Source: Candidatus Pacearchaeota archaeon (GTDB taxonomy: Archaea; Nanobdellota; Nanobdellia; Pacearchaeales; UBA284). From it: a DNA stretch of 41,261 nt. Below the pieces are notes generated by a model. That model was given only the letters and a program-made list of their open reading frames with translations, made no database searches and was not told where the DNA came from. Location of the stretch: NCBI GenBank assembly GCA_026395795.1, contig JAPLYB010000034.1:1-41261 (forward strand), in the 5' to 3' direction. Positions 11,995-41,056 of the stretch are shown here, piece after piece. The position numbers were made by a program, and so were the translations under genes. Each line of letters opens with the position of its first letter. Within the stretch, counting starts at the first letter, position 1.

Positions 11995-13011
11995 ATGTTT
12001 GTTGAAATCTTTTTTTCAATTTTAAGTTTTATCCTCGCATTCTTCGTTTCTCTTGGTTTGACCAAATGGTGGATAAAAATTTCCAGAGGGCATAAAGAGA
12101 TGCTCCAACCAGATATGAACAAATATAAAAGTAAACCAACAATATCAAAAGCAGGCGGAATTGCTGTAACAATAGCAATTGTACTGTCTATCTTGGTTTA
12201 TATCTTTTTCAAAACATTCATCTTACATTCCCCAACACATGAAATTGAAACATTGAGCATTGTAGTAACTCTTCTTTTAGCCTGTTTTGTAGGGTTCATA
12301 GATGATATCTTTGGTTGGGGGAAATCTTCTATAAGTGGCTATAAAAAGATTTTGATGACCATTCCAATTGCAATTCCATTAATGGTTATTAATGCTGGTC
12401 AATCTATAATGGCATTTCCTTTTCTAGGAGCTATCGATTTCGGCATTGTTTATCCTTTAATTATTGTCCCCCTTGCAATTATTGGAACAACGAATGGCTT
12501 TAATTTACTTGCAGGATTCAATGGCATGGAAGCCGGTCTTGGAGTTGTGTCTTTTGCAGGACTTGGAATACTCGCTTATATGACGGGTCAGATGTGGCTT
12601 GTTTTAATTGCAGGAGTAATTGTCTCGGCTCTTCTTGGGTTTCTTGTTTTTAACAAAAATCCGGCAAAAATATTTCCAGGGAATACCTTAACTTATATTA
12701 TTGGGGGTCTTTTTGGAAGTCTTGCAATTATAGGAAATATGGAAAAAGCAGCATTAATCATTTTTATTCCATTTATCTTAGAAGGCTTTCTTAAACTGAG
12801 AAGTAGATTTAAGGCTTGGAATTTCGGGATTCCAAGCAAAGACAATAGTTTGGAATCAAGATACAAAAAGAACTACAGTTTGACTCATATTGCTCTAAGG
12901 ATTTTAAAGAAGATCAAGCCAAGTCACAAAGTTTATGAAAATGATATAACCTACTTCATAATATCTTTTGAGATCGTTCTCGCAATTATCGCTATTATCG
13001 TTTCTATATAG
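11995..13011 (+). CDS. UDP-GlcNAc:dolichyl-phosphate GlcNAc-1-phosphate transferase-like
   Basis: The 338-residue membrane protein belongs to the GPT/MraY/WecA family, which starts lipid-linked oligosaccharides by moving a sugar-1-phosphate onto a polyprenyl phosphate. Around ten transmembrane helices are visible. The metal-binding aspartates occur in VGFIDDIFGW (about 101-110), and the nucleotide-binding region is TNGFNLLAGFNGMEAGLG. The KPTISKAGGIAV segment near the N-terminus is also typical. The archaeal/eukaryal GPT branch is favoured over bacterial MraY by the GFIDDIFGW form. Together with AglB and the flippase it forms the constant part of the glycosylation locus. Confidence 0.88.
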   Translation: MFVEIFFSILSFILAFFVSLGLTKWWIKISRGHKEMLQPDMNKYKSKPTISKAGGIAVTIAIVLSILVYIFFKTFILHSPTHEIETLSIVVTLLLACFVGFIDDIFGWGKSSISGYKKILMTIPIAIPLMVINAGQSIMAFPFLGAIDFGIVYPLIIVPLAIIGTTNGFNLLAGFNGMEAGLGVVSFAGLGILAYMTGQMWLVLIAGVIVSALLGFLVFNKNPAKIFPGNTLTYIIGGLFGSLAIIGNMEKAALIIFIPFILEGFLKLRSRFKAWNFGIPSKDNSLESRYKKNYSLTHIALRILKKIKPSHKVYENDITYFIISFEIVLAIIAIIVSI

Positions 13012-13106
13012 TTTCGCACTTATTTATTTCTTTCTTTGGTGCGTTACCACCGGTTGATACAGGTTCTGTCGCATTAGGGGCTTTTACTTTAAACTTACCG
13101 TTCTAA

Positions 13107-13184
13107 TTATTTTATACCATCGCAAATATTCTTGGACATGGGGATATTAGAAGCACAAAAGTTTATCTTCACTTAAATAAATAG
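13107..13184 (+). pseudogene. C-terminal remnant of a tyrosine recombinase
   Basis: The frame encodes TIANILGHGDIRSTKVYLHL and two more residues before a stop at 13182-13184; it has no start and an in-frame stop just upstream at 13104-13106. The LGH box and the tyrosine in VYLHL match the last catalytic histidine region and the nucleophile of XerC/D-type and phage integrases. Everything upstream (arginine box, arm-binding domain) is missing. The fragment lies exactly between the conserved glycosylation genes and the variable sugar island, as if marking an old insertion border. Confidence 0.7.
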
Positions 13185-13216
13185 ATTTTTGAACACATAA
13201 GGCAAGTTTTAAACAG

Positions 13217-14017
13217 TTAATTACATCTTGCCAAATAATTATTATACATTATATGTTTAACAGAATAACCATACTTTTTTAATAATGCAATTATGGTAGA
13301 ACAATTTTCTTTATCAATTTCAAGAATTATATTTTTAATTTTATTTTCTGACAGAAAAACTTTCATACCTTTCAAAACATCTAACTCAAAACCTTCTACA
13401 TCTATTTTAACTAAATCAATCTTTTTTACTTTATCTTTAAATAAATTGTCGAAAGTGTCTAACTTAACAATATCAAAATCTTTACGTTTAATTTTTAAAG
13501 AATGTCCTCCATAGTTTCGGCTGTCGCAATCTTTGTATAATTTAGCATTACCTTTTTTATTTCCTAAAGCAATTTTAAACAGTTCAATATTATTTAAATT
13601 ATTTAATTTTACATTTTTAGATAAAATTCTAAAGTTATCTTCTTCTGGCTCTATAGAATAAATTTTTGCTTGAGAGTTAATGCCCCCAAGAACAGTATAT
13701 CTACCAATATTTGCCCCGATATCTACAATTACCTTACTTTCTTTAGAAAGGTTTTCAAAAAGTTTTTTCACATTAAATTCATAACTGTCTGAAATAATAT
13801 GCAAATCTAAACTTTTTTCTCGACAATAAAATAATCCATTAGAGTTGGCTATTACTGGTTTTGTTAATCCTTCACCAAGACTATAATAATTCTTTTTTGT
13901 GAACAAACTAAGCGATCTTAACCATAAATATTTTCTTTTCTCTCGTTGAATAAGTTTGTTACCCTCTTTATTTACTCCTTTTATCCTAAAAAAGGATTGT
14001 AACTTTTCTATACCCAT
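13217..14017 (-). CDS. FkbM-family methyltransferase
   Basis: The 266-residue protein has the SAM-binding motif VIVDIGANIGRYT (D99, G101, N103) and the FkbM signature KIDVEGFELDVLKGM further on, characteristic of FkbM-type O-methyltransferases. Members often methylate sugars in glycans and antibiotics. The first 80 residues are variable. It is divergent from the UDP-GlcNAc 2-epimerase gene and the two starts flank a symmetrical TATA element. Likely role: O-methylation of a sugar in the surface glycan; the acceptor is unknown. Confidence 0.85.
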   Translation of the reverse strand: MGIEKLQSFFRIKGVNKEGNKLIQREKRKYLWLRSLSLFTKKNYYSLGEGLTKPVIANSNGLFYCREKSLDLHIISDSYEFNVKKLFENLSKESKVIVDIGANIGRYTVLGGINSQAKIYSIEPEEDNFRILSKNVKLNNLNNIELFKIALGNKKGNAKLYKDCDSRNYGGHSLKIKRKDFDIVKLDTFDNLFKDKVKKIDLVKIDVEGFELDVLKGMKVFLSENKIKNIILEIDKENCSTIIALLKKYGYSVKHIMYNNYLARCN

Positions 14018-38129: not shown

Positions 38130-38783
38130 ATGAGAAAAATGGCCAAAGGAACAAGAACAACGAAGAAAGCAGAAGATTCAGATAAAACCTCATTTAGTCT
38201 TGAAGTCGGATCAAAAATAAGAGAAGTTAAGTTAGAAAAAAAACTTGAAACAAAAGATAAATCAAACCAGATTATCAAAGCAAAACTTGTTGGTGATAAG
38301 GTTGTTAGTTCAGACAAAAATGCTCGAGATCTTCAAGGCAAAAGCAGATTCGGAGAGATTATAGAAGGAAAAATTTCTTATCCTCTGACTGAAGCATTAT
38401 ACTTGCTCGAAAAAGGGAGATTAACAATCACCAATAAAGGAAAAAAATTGAGTTTTGACAAATTTTTAGAAATTGTTAGAGAATCAGACCCAAATTTCTA
38501 TACAAAATTCTGTGTTTTTAGAGATATGAGAAATCGAGGGTACATTGTCAAGACTGCACTGAAGTTTGGAGCAGATTTCAGAGTTTATGATCGAGGCATC
38601 AAACCGGGAGAAGATCATGCAAAATGGGTTTTATTTCCAGTTCATGAGTCTTCAATACTAACTTGGCACGATTTTGCAGCAAAAAACAGAGTTGCTCACT
38701 CAACAAAGAAGAAACTTCTTATAGGAATTGTTGATGAAGAGGGCGATGTTACATATTATATATGTGAATGGACTAGGCCTTGA
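38130..38783 (+). CDS. endA: tRNA-splicing endonuclease EndA
   Basis: The 217-residue protein cuts introns from tRNAs at bulge-helix-bulge sites. The catalytic triad is clear: Y153 in FRVYDRG, H163 in GEDHAKW and K194 in HSTKKKLLIG. The spacing of 10 and 31 residues matches the archaeal enzyme. The N-terminal domain is longer than in minimal EndA, with a charged extension (about 1-65). Only one copy of the fold is present, so the enzyme is either a homotetramer or needs a partner subunit. A TATA box (CTTTTAAATATAAT) lies about 24 bases upstream of the chosen ATG. An intron-containing tRNA-Gln lies about 2.2 kb away. Confidence 0.93.
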   Translation: MRKMAKGTRTTKKAEDSDKTSFSLEVGSKIREVKLEKKLETKDKSNQIIKAKLVGDKVVSSDKNARDLQGKSRFGEIIEGKISYPLTEALYLLEKGRLTITNKGKKLSFDKFLEIVRESDPNFYTKFCVFRDMRNRGYIVKTALKFGADFRVYDRGIKPGEDHAKWVLFPVHESSILTWHDFAAKNRVAHSTKKKLLIGIVDEEGDVTYYICEWTRP

Positions 38784-38847: not shown

Positions 38848-39861
38848 ATGGGTTTGAATATTATAGAAAAAAAGCCATTGGTGATTACTCTTTTGAGAGA
38901 TAAAGGTCCATCATTACCTAGTCAGATCTCTGGAGAAATTGGATTGTCCTTATTATTCACATCAGCCCTACTTTCAGAGATGGTTTCAGACAAGATGGTC
39001 CTGTACAGCTACTTAAAAGTCGGCGGTTCTCCATTATACTTCCTTCCAGGTCAAGAAGAAAAGCTGGAGAATTTTTCAAATCACCTTCATGGAAAGGAAA
39101 AAGAAGCGTTACAATTATTAAAAGAAAGGCAAGTTTTGTGTGAAGACGAACTTGAGCCGGTCCAGCGAGTTTGTTTAGGAAACATGAAAGATTTTGCAAT
39201 TCCCGTTAAATTCAATTATAAAAACCAACCAAAATTATTCTGGAGATATTATATGTTCCCAGAACAAGGGTCTTTCACAAAGATGGAAGAGTATTTTGCA
39301 AAACTTCCCAAACCTCCAAAGGTCGAGACAGATAAAAAAATTGAGGAATTCGAAAAACCAGATGAGATTAGAGATACAATTAATAAGCTTAAAGAAGAAA
39401 ATGCAATCAAACCTCTGCATCCAGTTGGCATGGATGAAAAAGAGAAGTTGGCAGAAGCAAATAAAGAAGTTAAAATAGAAGTAAGAATAGAAGAACAAAA
39501 ACTTCTCCACCCAGAAGTTCTAAAGAAAACAGTCAAGAAACGTGTTCCAACAAAGAAAAAACAAGACTTCACTTCTCGTGTTTTAGATTATGTAAAAGAG
39601 AAAGACATGTTAATACTAAAGAATTTTGATGAAGACAATAAGATTTGTGTTGCAGAACTAGAATCAGCAGTTGGTGCAATGAAGTTTCTCATCTTTGGAT
39701 TAAACAAAAAGTCTTTGAACGAATCAGACCTAAGTCTTGCTTTCAGTGAAGGGCAGCATGAAAGACTTCCTGTTCTTTTAATAACAAACGGCAAGTTAAC
39801 GAAGAAAGCAGAAGAATATCAAAAGAAGTTAGGAAATTATATTATCATCAACAAAATTTAA
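38848..39861 (+). CDS. Unknown protein with winged-helix-like N-terminus
   Basis: The 337-residue protein follows endA by 64 bases on the same strand. The first 70 residues look like a winged helix (ITLLRDKGPSLPSQISGEIG, then SALLSEMVSDKMVLYSYLKV). A charged linker (about 155-230) joins it to a C-terminal domain of about 95 residues with an alternating beta/alpha pattern (MKFLIFGLNKKSLNESDLSL, VLLITNGKLTKKAEEYQKKL, YIIINKI). The last part faintly recalls restriction-endonuclease-like folds without an obvious catalytic set; that is only a resemblance. No membrane segments. Function unknown. Confidence 0.6.
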   Translation: MGLNIIEKKPLVITLLRDKGPSLPSQISGEIGLSLLFTSALLSEMVSDKMVLYSYLKVGGSPLYFLPGQEEKLENFSNHLHGKEKEALQLLKERQVLCEDELEPVQRVCLGNMKDFAIPVKFNYKNQPKLFWRYYMFPEQGSFTKMEEYFAKLPKPPKVETDKKIEEFEKPDEIRDTINKLKEENAIKPLHPVGMDEKEKLAEANKEVKIEVRIEEQKLLHPEVLKKTVKKRVPTKKKQDFTSRVLDYVKEKDMLILKNFDEDNKICVAELESAVGAMKFLIFGLNKKSLNESDLSLAFSEGQHERLPVLLITNGKLTKKAEEYQKKLGNYIIINKI

Positions 39862-39989: not shown

Positions 39990-40175
39990 TTAATCTTTTC
40001 TTATTTGTGCGTTGATGACTACATTCTGCTGTTTGCTCCACTCTTTATCTGAATGTGTTTTTACATATTCTGCCCAAAATTTTACAAAATTAAGCCTGTC
40101 CTCTTGATTATCTTTGCCTGGTTTCATAAAAACTCTTTTCTCTTCTTTTTTATTATCTTCTATATTCTTACTCAT
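39990..40175 (-). CDS. Small partner protein of the nucleotidyltransferase
   Basis: The 61-residue product starts at an ATG whose first bases overlap the end of the nucleotidyltransferase gene as ATGAGTAA (8-base overlap), implying coupled translation. A TTG at 40188-40190 could add five residues but the ATG is preferred. The N-terminal half is charged (KNIEDNKKEEKRVFMKPGKD) and the second half helical and aromatic (NFVKFWAEYVKTHSDKEWSK, QQNVVINAQI). No named domain is recognised. Size and coupling are those of a toxin-antitoxin partner or an accessory subunit; this is inference. Confidence 0.6.
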   Translation of the reverse strand: MSKNIEDNKKEEKRVFMKPGKDNQEDRLNFVKFWAEYVKTHSDKEWSKQQNVVINAQIRKD

Positions 40176-40749
40176 TTTTTCTCTTTTCAATAATTTCCTT
40201 TAATTTGTCTATTTTTTTATAATCTATTTTATCTTTAAATATTCTTTCAACATGCAATGCATCTTCCATGTCTTTTCCAGAGCATAAAAAATATCTTTTG
40301 AATGCGATTTGTCTTTCAAGAGAGGAAATTTTTAAATTTCCTTCTTTTAATTTTACCACGATAAAATCATCAAAAACATCTTCATCTTCTCTTTTAACAA
40401 TTTTAACTTCAAAATTTGGAATAGAAGTATTTTCTAAAGCAAATCTAACAGCTAAACCTTCACGTAGATAGGAAAAGAGTTCTTCTGGTTTTTCTGCATT
40501 TATACACCAAAGTCCATTATTTTTTAATTCTTCATAAAAACGAAAGAATTTTTCTTTATCCACTTTTCTAATAAAAACATCTACATCCTCTGTAGCCCTT
40601 GTCCTTCCTAATAAAATAGCCACATATCCCGAAATAAGCACATAGTCAATATGCCTCTCTAAAATTCTAATAAACTTTAAAACAAGCTTATCTAGATTGC
40701 TCAATTCTCTGTCGCAGATTATCTCTCTTTTTTCAGTATTATATATCAT
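40168..40749 (-). CDS. Nucleotidyltransferase, AbiEii/MenT-like
   Basis: The 193-residue protein has the DNA polymerase beta-type nucleotidyltransferase signature YVLISGYVAILLGRTRATED followed by VDVFI, where the acidic pair in EDVDVF is the expected metal site. A helical C-terminal region (about 115-193) follows. It fits the AbiEii/MenT-like group, which includes toxins that modify tRNA and enzymes of unknown substrate. A TATA box with BRE-like bases (reads CGAAAGTGTTAAAAATTGG on the minus strand) lies about 26 bases before the ATG. The next gene overlaps by eight bases. Confidence 0.75.
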   Translation of the reverse strand: MIYNTEKREIICDRELSNLDKLVLKFIRILERHIDYVLISGYVAILLGRTRATEDVDVFIRKVDKEKFFRFYEELKNNGLWCINAEKPEELFSYLREGLAVRFALENTSIPNFEVKIVKREDEDVFDDFIVVKLKEGNLKISSLERQIAFKRYFLCSGKDMEDALHVERIFKDKIDYKKIDKLKEIIEKRKNE

Positions 40750-40951
40750 TTAATATCCAACCATGTCCAATTTTTAACACTTTCGATATAACAAAAAAAG
40801 AAGAAATCATAAAAAATGTTTGGCATTTTTGCGATTCGACAAATTTCCTAGTGCCGAAAAAGTTCTCTTTTTCTAGCATAACAAAGTTTTTTAAATTGGT
40901 CGGTTTTAAGAACAGTAAGCATCTTAACCGCATTAAGATGTTTAGAGATGT
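40750..40951. other. Intergenic stretch with two hairpins before tRNA-Gln
   Basis: No convincing gene. AAAAATG (40813-40819) pairs with CATTTTT (40825-40831). CATCTTAA (40920-40927) pairs perfectly with TTAAGATG (40933-40940) around a 5-base loop, 11 bases before tRNA-Gln. A TATA-like TTTTTTAAATTGG (about 40886-40898) would start transcription ahead of the second hairpin, putting it in the tRNA leader. Confidence 0.4.
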
Positions 40952-41056
40952 AGTCCCGTAGTATAGCGGTCAAATTCTCTAAACAAAACTGTTTGAGAAG
41001 ACTAAGTATGTTGGCCTTTGGAGCCAGCGACCCAGGTTCGAATCCTGGCGGGACTA
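40952..41056 (+). tRNA. tRNA-Gln (anticodon TTG) with a D-loop intron
   Basis: Exon 1 is 40952-40973 and exon 2 is 41006-41056. Joined they give a 73-base tRNA: acceptor AGTCCCG/CGGGACT, D-stem GTAT/GTAT, anticodon stem TTGGC/GCCAG with loop CTTTGGA (anticodon TTG), T-arm CCAGG-TTCGAAT-CCTGG, discriminator A. The 32-base insert lies at the end of the D-loop (about position 21/22) instead of the usual 37/38. CCA is not encoded. Confidence 0.88.
40974..41005 (+). other. Intron of tRNA-Gln with bulge-helix motif
   Basis: Inside the intron TTCTC (40975-40979) pairs with GAGAA (40995-40999), and AAACA (40981-40985) with TGTTT (40990-40994). The exon bases GGTC (40968-40971) pair with GACT (41000-41003). 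This leaves 3-base bulges AAA (40972-40974) and AAG (41004-41006) on either side of a 4-pair helix. Cutting after the second base of each bulge gives exactly the boundaries that restore a normal tRNA. The outer helix is weak, a relaxed type of motif. Confidence 0.75.

Follow-up and report, generated by a model that had tools for sequence, protein, structure and literature searches.

A tRNA-Gln(TTG) gene with a removable intron in the D-loop occupies positions 40952-41056 of the window, that is, the whole 41,261-nucleotide stretch of DNA that was analysed, which is contig 41 of a genome (G000) of 956,882 bases in 44 contigs, 87.5% complete. Its sequence makes it very probable that the gene is functional. 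The intron adds a new host group to those with non-canonical archaeal tRNA introns; the novelty lies in its linkage to isoacceptor-specific endonucleases. We consider it probable that the locus encodes a functional tRNA-Gln(UUG) with a relaxed D-loop intron spliced by the tRNA splicing endonuclease EndA, and that it is a former homing-endonuclease site subject to co-conversion and resistance. The features concerned are as follows.

38130..38783, + strand: EndA, tRNA splicing endonuclease, 217 aa, one-unit alpha type (PF01974, 3.6e-27; PF02778, 4.9e-13)
38848..39861, + strand: conserved ORF, 337 aa, function not assigned by Pfam (no match); synteny anchor
40872..40943, + strand: C-terminal remnant of a LAGLIDADG homing endonuclease, 24 codons, with 8 nt between its end and the tRNA
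40952..40973, + strand: 5' exon of tRNA-Gln(TTG), nt 1-22, with the acceptor strand, the 5' strand of the D-stem and GGTCAA of the D-loop
40968..40971, + strand: exon strand of the central helix, GGTC (G18 G19 U20 C20a), from pairing probability; kept in 22/22 introns
40974..41005, + strand: D-loop intron, 32 nt, from empty-site orthologues, the twin intron and covariation in 22 introns
41000..41003, + strand: intron strand of the central helix, GACT, from pairing probability and intron comparison
41006..41056, + strand: 3' exon of tRNA-Gln(TTG), anticodon TTG at 41018-41020

Removal of 32 nt yields, as the preliminary description of this DNA had stated, a complete tRNA: the 73-nt product has all arms and is called Gln(TTG) by ARAGORN. 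With the intron in place, ARAGORN overlooks or misreads the gene and Rfam does not find it; both programs detect three other tRNAs in the window. Because D-loop-intron tRNA genes are missed or misnamed in this way, tRNA counts for DPANN archaea are likely too low. The intron borders carry a 2-nt ambiguity: with AA at both borders, excision of 40972-41003, 40973-41004 or 40974-41005 gives an identical product. The bulge rule (GGTC-AA^A ... GACT-AA^G), under which cleavage falls between the second and third bulge base (40973^40974 and 41005^41006), selects 40974-41005, between A21 and G22 (position 21/22), and the cut sites predicted from the bulges do coincide with the intron borders, as had been claimed. 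The predicted spliced junction of tRNA-Gln(UUG) is GGTCAAGTATG.

The minimum free energy fold of the precursor contains the acceptor, anticodon and T arms together with the GGTC/GACT helix, its AAA bulge and an intron hairpin; pair probabilities are 0.84-0.93 in the GGTC/GACT helix and 0.92-1.0 in the inner hairpin. Examined as a bulge-helix-bulge motif, the gene has a 4-bp central helix and 3-nt bulges (AAA and AAG) at both cut sites. The outer helix of the strict motif is absent at the 3' site, where the D-stem (GTAT/GTAT) pairs with a probability of only ~0.1, an internal loop (AGC x AA) being the other possible form. The splicing motif is relaxed at the 3' site, and the earlier description of a motif with an incomplete outer helix is borne out. 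Among the 5,987 codons of 14 ORFs in the window, 118 are CAA and 47 are CAG, which shows that CAA is actually used. A group I intron was rejected, the 32-nt insertion being too short and Rfam detecting none.

Every genome in the comparison with relatives, G000 included, was assembled from a metagenome or has no stated source. Intronless relatives read exactly through the intron site, and their D-arm equals the predicted spliced product (e.g. GTATAGCGGTCAAGTAT in L010, L016 and L029). The EndA-linked syntenic locus is polymorphic within one genus, with the intron present in genome G005 and absent from G009. The 337-aa ORF also lies between EndA and tRNA-Gln in G005 and G001, on the evidence of a related ORF recognized by reading (L203 and L104). 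In G001 the syntenic tRNA-Gln (L104, G001:C34) has two introns, one in the D-loop and one at 37/38, and no endonuclease was detected beside it. The second tRNA-Gln gene of G000, with anticodon CTG (C15:19691-19793), contains a 30-nt intron with the same site and borders and a different hairpin.

Across 22 Gln/Glu introns at the D-loop site, all 88 of the 88 central-helix pairs form, and a TA to CG change in the central helix follows tRNA type; in the inner helix, 155 of 176 positions pair, compared to 112 +/- 4.6 in shuffles (0/2000). Since the search pattern fixed AAA and GRCY, the independent evidence in these figures consists only of the inner helix and the R/Y coupling (the T-A/C-G change). 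In G000, the pattern GGTC-AAA...GRCY had no matches when read backwards, and other genomes contain the same intron again; the intron is thus not due to chance.

Three features had escaped the preliminary description: the twin intron that tRNA-Gln(CTG) carries, the introns of related kind in other tRNAs, and the endonuclease remnant just upstream of the gene. The remnant is 62.5% identical to the intact endonuclease of G018 (tblastn, E=3.5e-7) and matches the family profile (E=7e-6), as nothing else does in a six-frame translation of the window. The endonuclease ORF lies outside the intron, which is 32 nt long, the gene remnant being upstream of the tRNA. A conserved hairpin upstream of the tRNA, CATCTTAA...TTAAGATG, is unique in the genome; it was considered and rejected as a regulatory or RNA element because it consists of codons of the endonuclease C-terminus. 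Separately, a 193-aa ORF with weak likeness to nucleotidyltransferases (DUF2204, E=0.045) stands on the minus strand at 40168-40749, the expected place of the lost endonuclease body.

Intact LAGLIDADG ORFs of 302 and 295 aa, 58% identical, lie upstream of intron-bearing tRNA-Gln genes in G018 and G008, and their stop codons overlap or touch the tRNA; the corresponding remnant in G005 has a broken frame. Altogether, an intact endonuclease stands beside an intron-bearing gene in G008, G018, G457, G257, G449, G426, G466, G424 and G000-C26. When all 200 genomes of the order were searched with the family profile, 62 proved to contain members. The best 30 members are all on the same strand as, and directly upstream of, a tRNA-Gln or tRNA-Glu, ending within ~14 nt of it; 10 of these 30 tRNAs have a D-loop intron and 20 have none, some with an ordinary D-loop, and one of the 30 (L239) precedes an apparently truncated tRNA-Glu(TTC). 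Weaker members are followed by a tRNA on the same strand in ~16/20 cases, chiefly Val and Gly. In a second order, ARAGORN detects a tRNA after 15/30 members, and several others precede tRNAs that, by eye, carry multiple insertions.

In a tree of 27 endonucleases, Gln-adjacent and Glu-adjacent members are split with one change (mean of shuffled labels ~9). Read by anticodon, the tree has one well-supported group for each of TTG, CTG and TTC, with CTC making up the rest, whereas host families mix. Specificity for the tRNA gene as target would give such an isoacceptor split. The genome of the window itself contains further cases: an intact 296-aa LAGLIDADG ORF (L335:706-1596, G000:C26) overlaps the 5' end of a tRNA-Glu(TTC) with a D-loop intron at the same site; a LAGLIDADG_1 gene (L334, minus strand, G000:C14, ~12940-13300) stops 32 nt short of an initiator tRNA-Met with an insertion in its D-stem and an odd additional T in its T-stem; a LAGLIDADG_3 gene with a homing-endonuclease-associated repeat (L331, minus strand, G000:C31) ends 25 nt before a tRNA-Tyr with a D-loop intron and a further anticodon-stem insertion; and a LAGLIDADG gene also ends near tRNA-His, which is without a D-arm intron.

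As the endonuclease gene lies outside the intron, its link to the intron site is statistical. When D-loop-intron genes were collected by pattern alone, blind to the endonuclease (n=18), an endonuclease or remnant was directly upstream in 11/18, compared to 2/50 intronless controls based on ARAGORN (p=1e-6, Fisher test, which, like the other Fisher tests here, ignores shared ancestry). Of the 20 endonuclease-adjacent tRNAs without the intron, at least 9 had one additional nucleotide in the D-loop, vs. 1/50 controls (p=2e-5), with insertions counted by eye and controls that are mostly Gln, the endonuclease-adjacent set including Glu; for Gln alone, the counts were 6/13 vs. 1/49. D-loop indels thus look enriched beside endonuclease genes.

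These counts bear on an explanation that we regard as possible but doubtful, namely that the intron is an ordinary non-canonical archaeal tRNA intron which EndA splices and which spread by some other route (e.g. intron transposition, as proposed for Thermoproteales), and that the neighbouring endonucleases find a safe site in the 5' flanks of tRNAs and have no part in intron gain. Consistent with this, the intron and its splicing motif stand without any endonuclease, 7 of the 18 D-loop-intron genes, including tRNA-Gln(CTG) of G000, have no detectable endonuclease beside them, and Crenarchaea have similar D-arm introns for which no endonucleases are reported (PMC4090602, PMC4033280). However, the enrichment of endonucleases in a search blind to them, and the excess of D-loop indels in endonuclease-adjacent tRNAs without an intron, argue against two unrelated phenomena.

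The explanation that we prefer, a spliced intron at a former homing site, comprises the following steps, which we infer from sequence comparison. The 3' end of the intron, GACU, would pair with the conserved G18-G19-U20-C20a of the tRNA to form the 4-bp central helix; a single alpha-type EndA would most likely cut GGUCAA^A and GACUAA^G, and a ligase would join the exons. The locus in the window is envisaged as the former site of a free-standing LAGLIDADG gene with isoacceptor specificity, of the kind that adjoins the 5' end of tRNA-Gln(TTG) genes in relatives; its decay would have left only the last 24 codons. Such an endonuclease would cut intron-free tRNA-Gln genes near the D-loop, repair from the donor would copy the endonuclease, the adjacent 5' part of the tRNA and the D-loop intron, and intron-bearing or D-loop-altered alleles would resist cutting. 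Removal of the intron from RNA by EndA would render the insertion harmless, so that the intron could persist after the endonuclease is lost, outlasting its decay. On the generalization of this scheme our judgement is evenly balanced: in Nanoarchaeia, isoacceptor-specific free-standing LAGLIDADG endonucleases would parasitise tRNA genes from the 5' side and drive protein-spliced tRNA introns to arise and spread, a form of collaborative homing in which the introns are of the bulge-helix-bulge type and are tolerated by virtue of a single-subunit EndA.

The EndA gene of the window does lie 2.2 kb upstream of the tRNA (it ends at 38783) and its product has an extended N-terminus, as the preliminary description had it, but the protein is not single-domain: an N-terminal domain (PF02778, residues 49-113) precedes the catalytic domain (PF01974, residues 123-209). 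It scores 111 bits against TIGR00324 (cut-off 59.6). The extension, 48 lysine-rich residues, varies in length among relatives. Names such as Candidatus Woesearchaeota, Pacearchaeota and Nanoarchaeota archaeon among the EndA relatives place the host with the DPANN archaea of the Nanoarchaeota. The best PDB matches include M. jannaschii 1A79 and N. equitans 3IEY_A. By sequence, EndA belongs to the alpha type, one unit comprising both N and C domains, and this architecture suggests a homotetramer (alpha4). A second subunit, for which a search had been proposed, was not found in G000 (87.5% complete), where PF01974 has one locus, of 217 aa, at E<=1; in relatives, PF01974 matches occur in 32/34 genomes and number practically always one, two genomes having an extra weak or partial match. 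No CSL/ASL-like insertion is visible in the alignment with M. jannaschii EndA. K71, a conserved Lys in a KSxFG stretch, is near the Sulfolobus CSL lysine in sequence alignment only and is a lead.

The alpha4 enzymes are held to be narrow in specificity, with breadth conferred by loops (PMC12397907, PMC6379350, PMC4033280). If the D-arm introns are spliced here, the rule that alpha4 is narrow would not hold; either an alpha-only EndA accepts relaxed motifs or a partner is missing. The preliminary description, in which such introns need an enzyme of broad specificity, places the main weight on a broad-specificity EndA, perhaps acting through its extended N-terminus or an unseen partner, with introns settling anywhere, a reading that we find rather improbable as a full account. 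It agrees with the range of interrupted tRNAs in G000, several with D-arm or other non-37/38 introns, as recognized by manual reading of folds: D-arm introns are present in Glu-TTC (same site as Gln), in Val-TAC and Val-GAC (GTGG/CCAY helix), in Tyr (with an anticodon-stem insertion) and in initiator Met, and Trp and Phe are interrupted near 23-28; three Ser tRNAs, Leu-CAA, Leu-TAA, Arg-TCT and a probable Ile-TAT are interrupted at or near 37/38. It also agrees with the closest catalytic sequences, among them N. equitans alpha, which belongs to an enzyme of broad specificity. Against it stand the single subunit, the lack of a visible CSL/ASL-like insertion and the variable length of the extension; moreover, permissiveness alone explains neither the recurrence of the site at D-loop GGYC|AA nor the link to endonucleases. 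A broad EndA is compatible with the best explanation, a former homing site, as one step of it.

That the gene is a dead copy or assembly artefact, with another tRNA-Gln serving CAA codons, is very improbable, for although the genome is 87.5% complete, the intron is present in both Gln genes of G000 and in relatives, with compensatory changes, and the acceptor, anticodon and T arms are intact. A pseudogene was likewise rejected, given the twin intron in tRNA-Gln(CTG) and the lack of an intact copy: no other intact tRNA-Gln (TTG) gene, the finding that had been named as pointing to inactivity, and no intact tRNA-Gln gene of any kind was found in the 956,882 bases of G000 (87.5% complete), the only Gln genes found being TTG and CTG.

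Among known systems, the non-canonical introns of Thermoproteales and other archaea (at 20/21, 22/23, 25/26 and others; PMC4090602) are likewise short and located outside 37/38, with a 4-bp central helix, 3-nt bulges and a relaxed outer helix. The tRNA-Gln intron differs from them in its position (21/22), in the use of G18-G19-U20-C20a as central helix, in its link to homing endonucleases and in its host, a DPANN archaeon of Nanoarchaeota/Woesearchaeota type with a single alpha-type EndA. The alpha4 EndA of M. jannaschii (1A79) resembles that of the window in being encoded by one gene as one unit with N and C domains, with no CSL/ASL insertion visible and within TIGR00324; however, it is called narrow (PMC4033280, PMC6379350), whereas G000 has relaxed D-arm introns and a 48-aa N-extension. 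The (alpha-beta)2 EndA of Nanoarchaeum equitans (3IEY) is close in its catalytic-subunit sequence, but for the EndA of the window no beta subunit was found, and the loop before its catalytic His is 6 residues shorter. LAGLIDADG endonucleases inside archaeal rRNA introns (PMC4496867) similarly combine a LAGLIDADG protein with introns cut by the tRNA splicing endonuclease, whereas the gene type found in the window is outside the intron, directly 5' of a tRNA, and the host gene is that tRNA. Collaborative homing by free-standing phage endonucleases (PMC3984707) shares the location of the endonuclease outside an ORF-less intron and the proposed intron-free target site; the intron described here is instead protein-spliced rather than a group I ribozyme, the target is a tRNA gene, and cleavage is inferred only.

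Reviews describe the gain and movement of archaeal tRNA introns as unknown (PMC4090602, PMC4033280), and a plasmid-integration model has been put forward (PMC3293823). A testable mechanism of intron spread is offered by an endonuclease family whose members sit at the 5' ends of tRNA genes, group by isoacceptor and are enriched next to D-loop introns. Relaxed D-arm introns together with an apparently homotetrameric EndA in which no specificity loop is visible call into question the rule that alpha4 enzymes act on strictly canonical motifs only. A search of mainly openly readable literature yielded no publication on homing endonucleases next to tRNA genes of DPANN archaea.

Several other tRNA loci merit mention. 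At L301 (G333:C32) and L306 (G235:C53), a tRNA-Gln directly follows a LAGLIDADG gene and seemingly has several insertions, including before the D-arm and in the T-arm. At L220, L222, L224, L234 and L235, a tRNA-Glu(CTC) located 3' of the endonuclease has an anticodon-loop intron of ~95-126 nt with a motif like TCGNTGAGAT; at these five loci Rfam found tRNAs only. A probable intron-bearing tRNA-Ile with anticodon TAT is present in G000 (L046, G000:C32:2028-2146), which is unusual in archaea, N. equitans being similar in kind. Finally, a tRNA-Gln(CTG) in another genome (L206:773-1203, G004:C5:19772-20202) has a 365-nt intron at 37/38 with an intact 115-aa HNH ORF that matches PHROG HNH families (E=1e-25), apparently an intron-encoded endonuclease in an archaeal tRNA intron.
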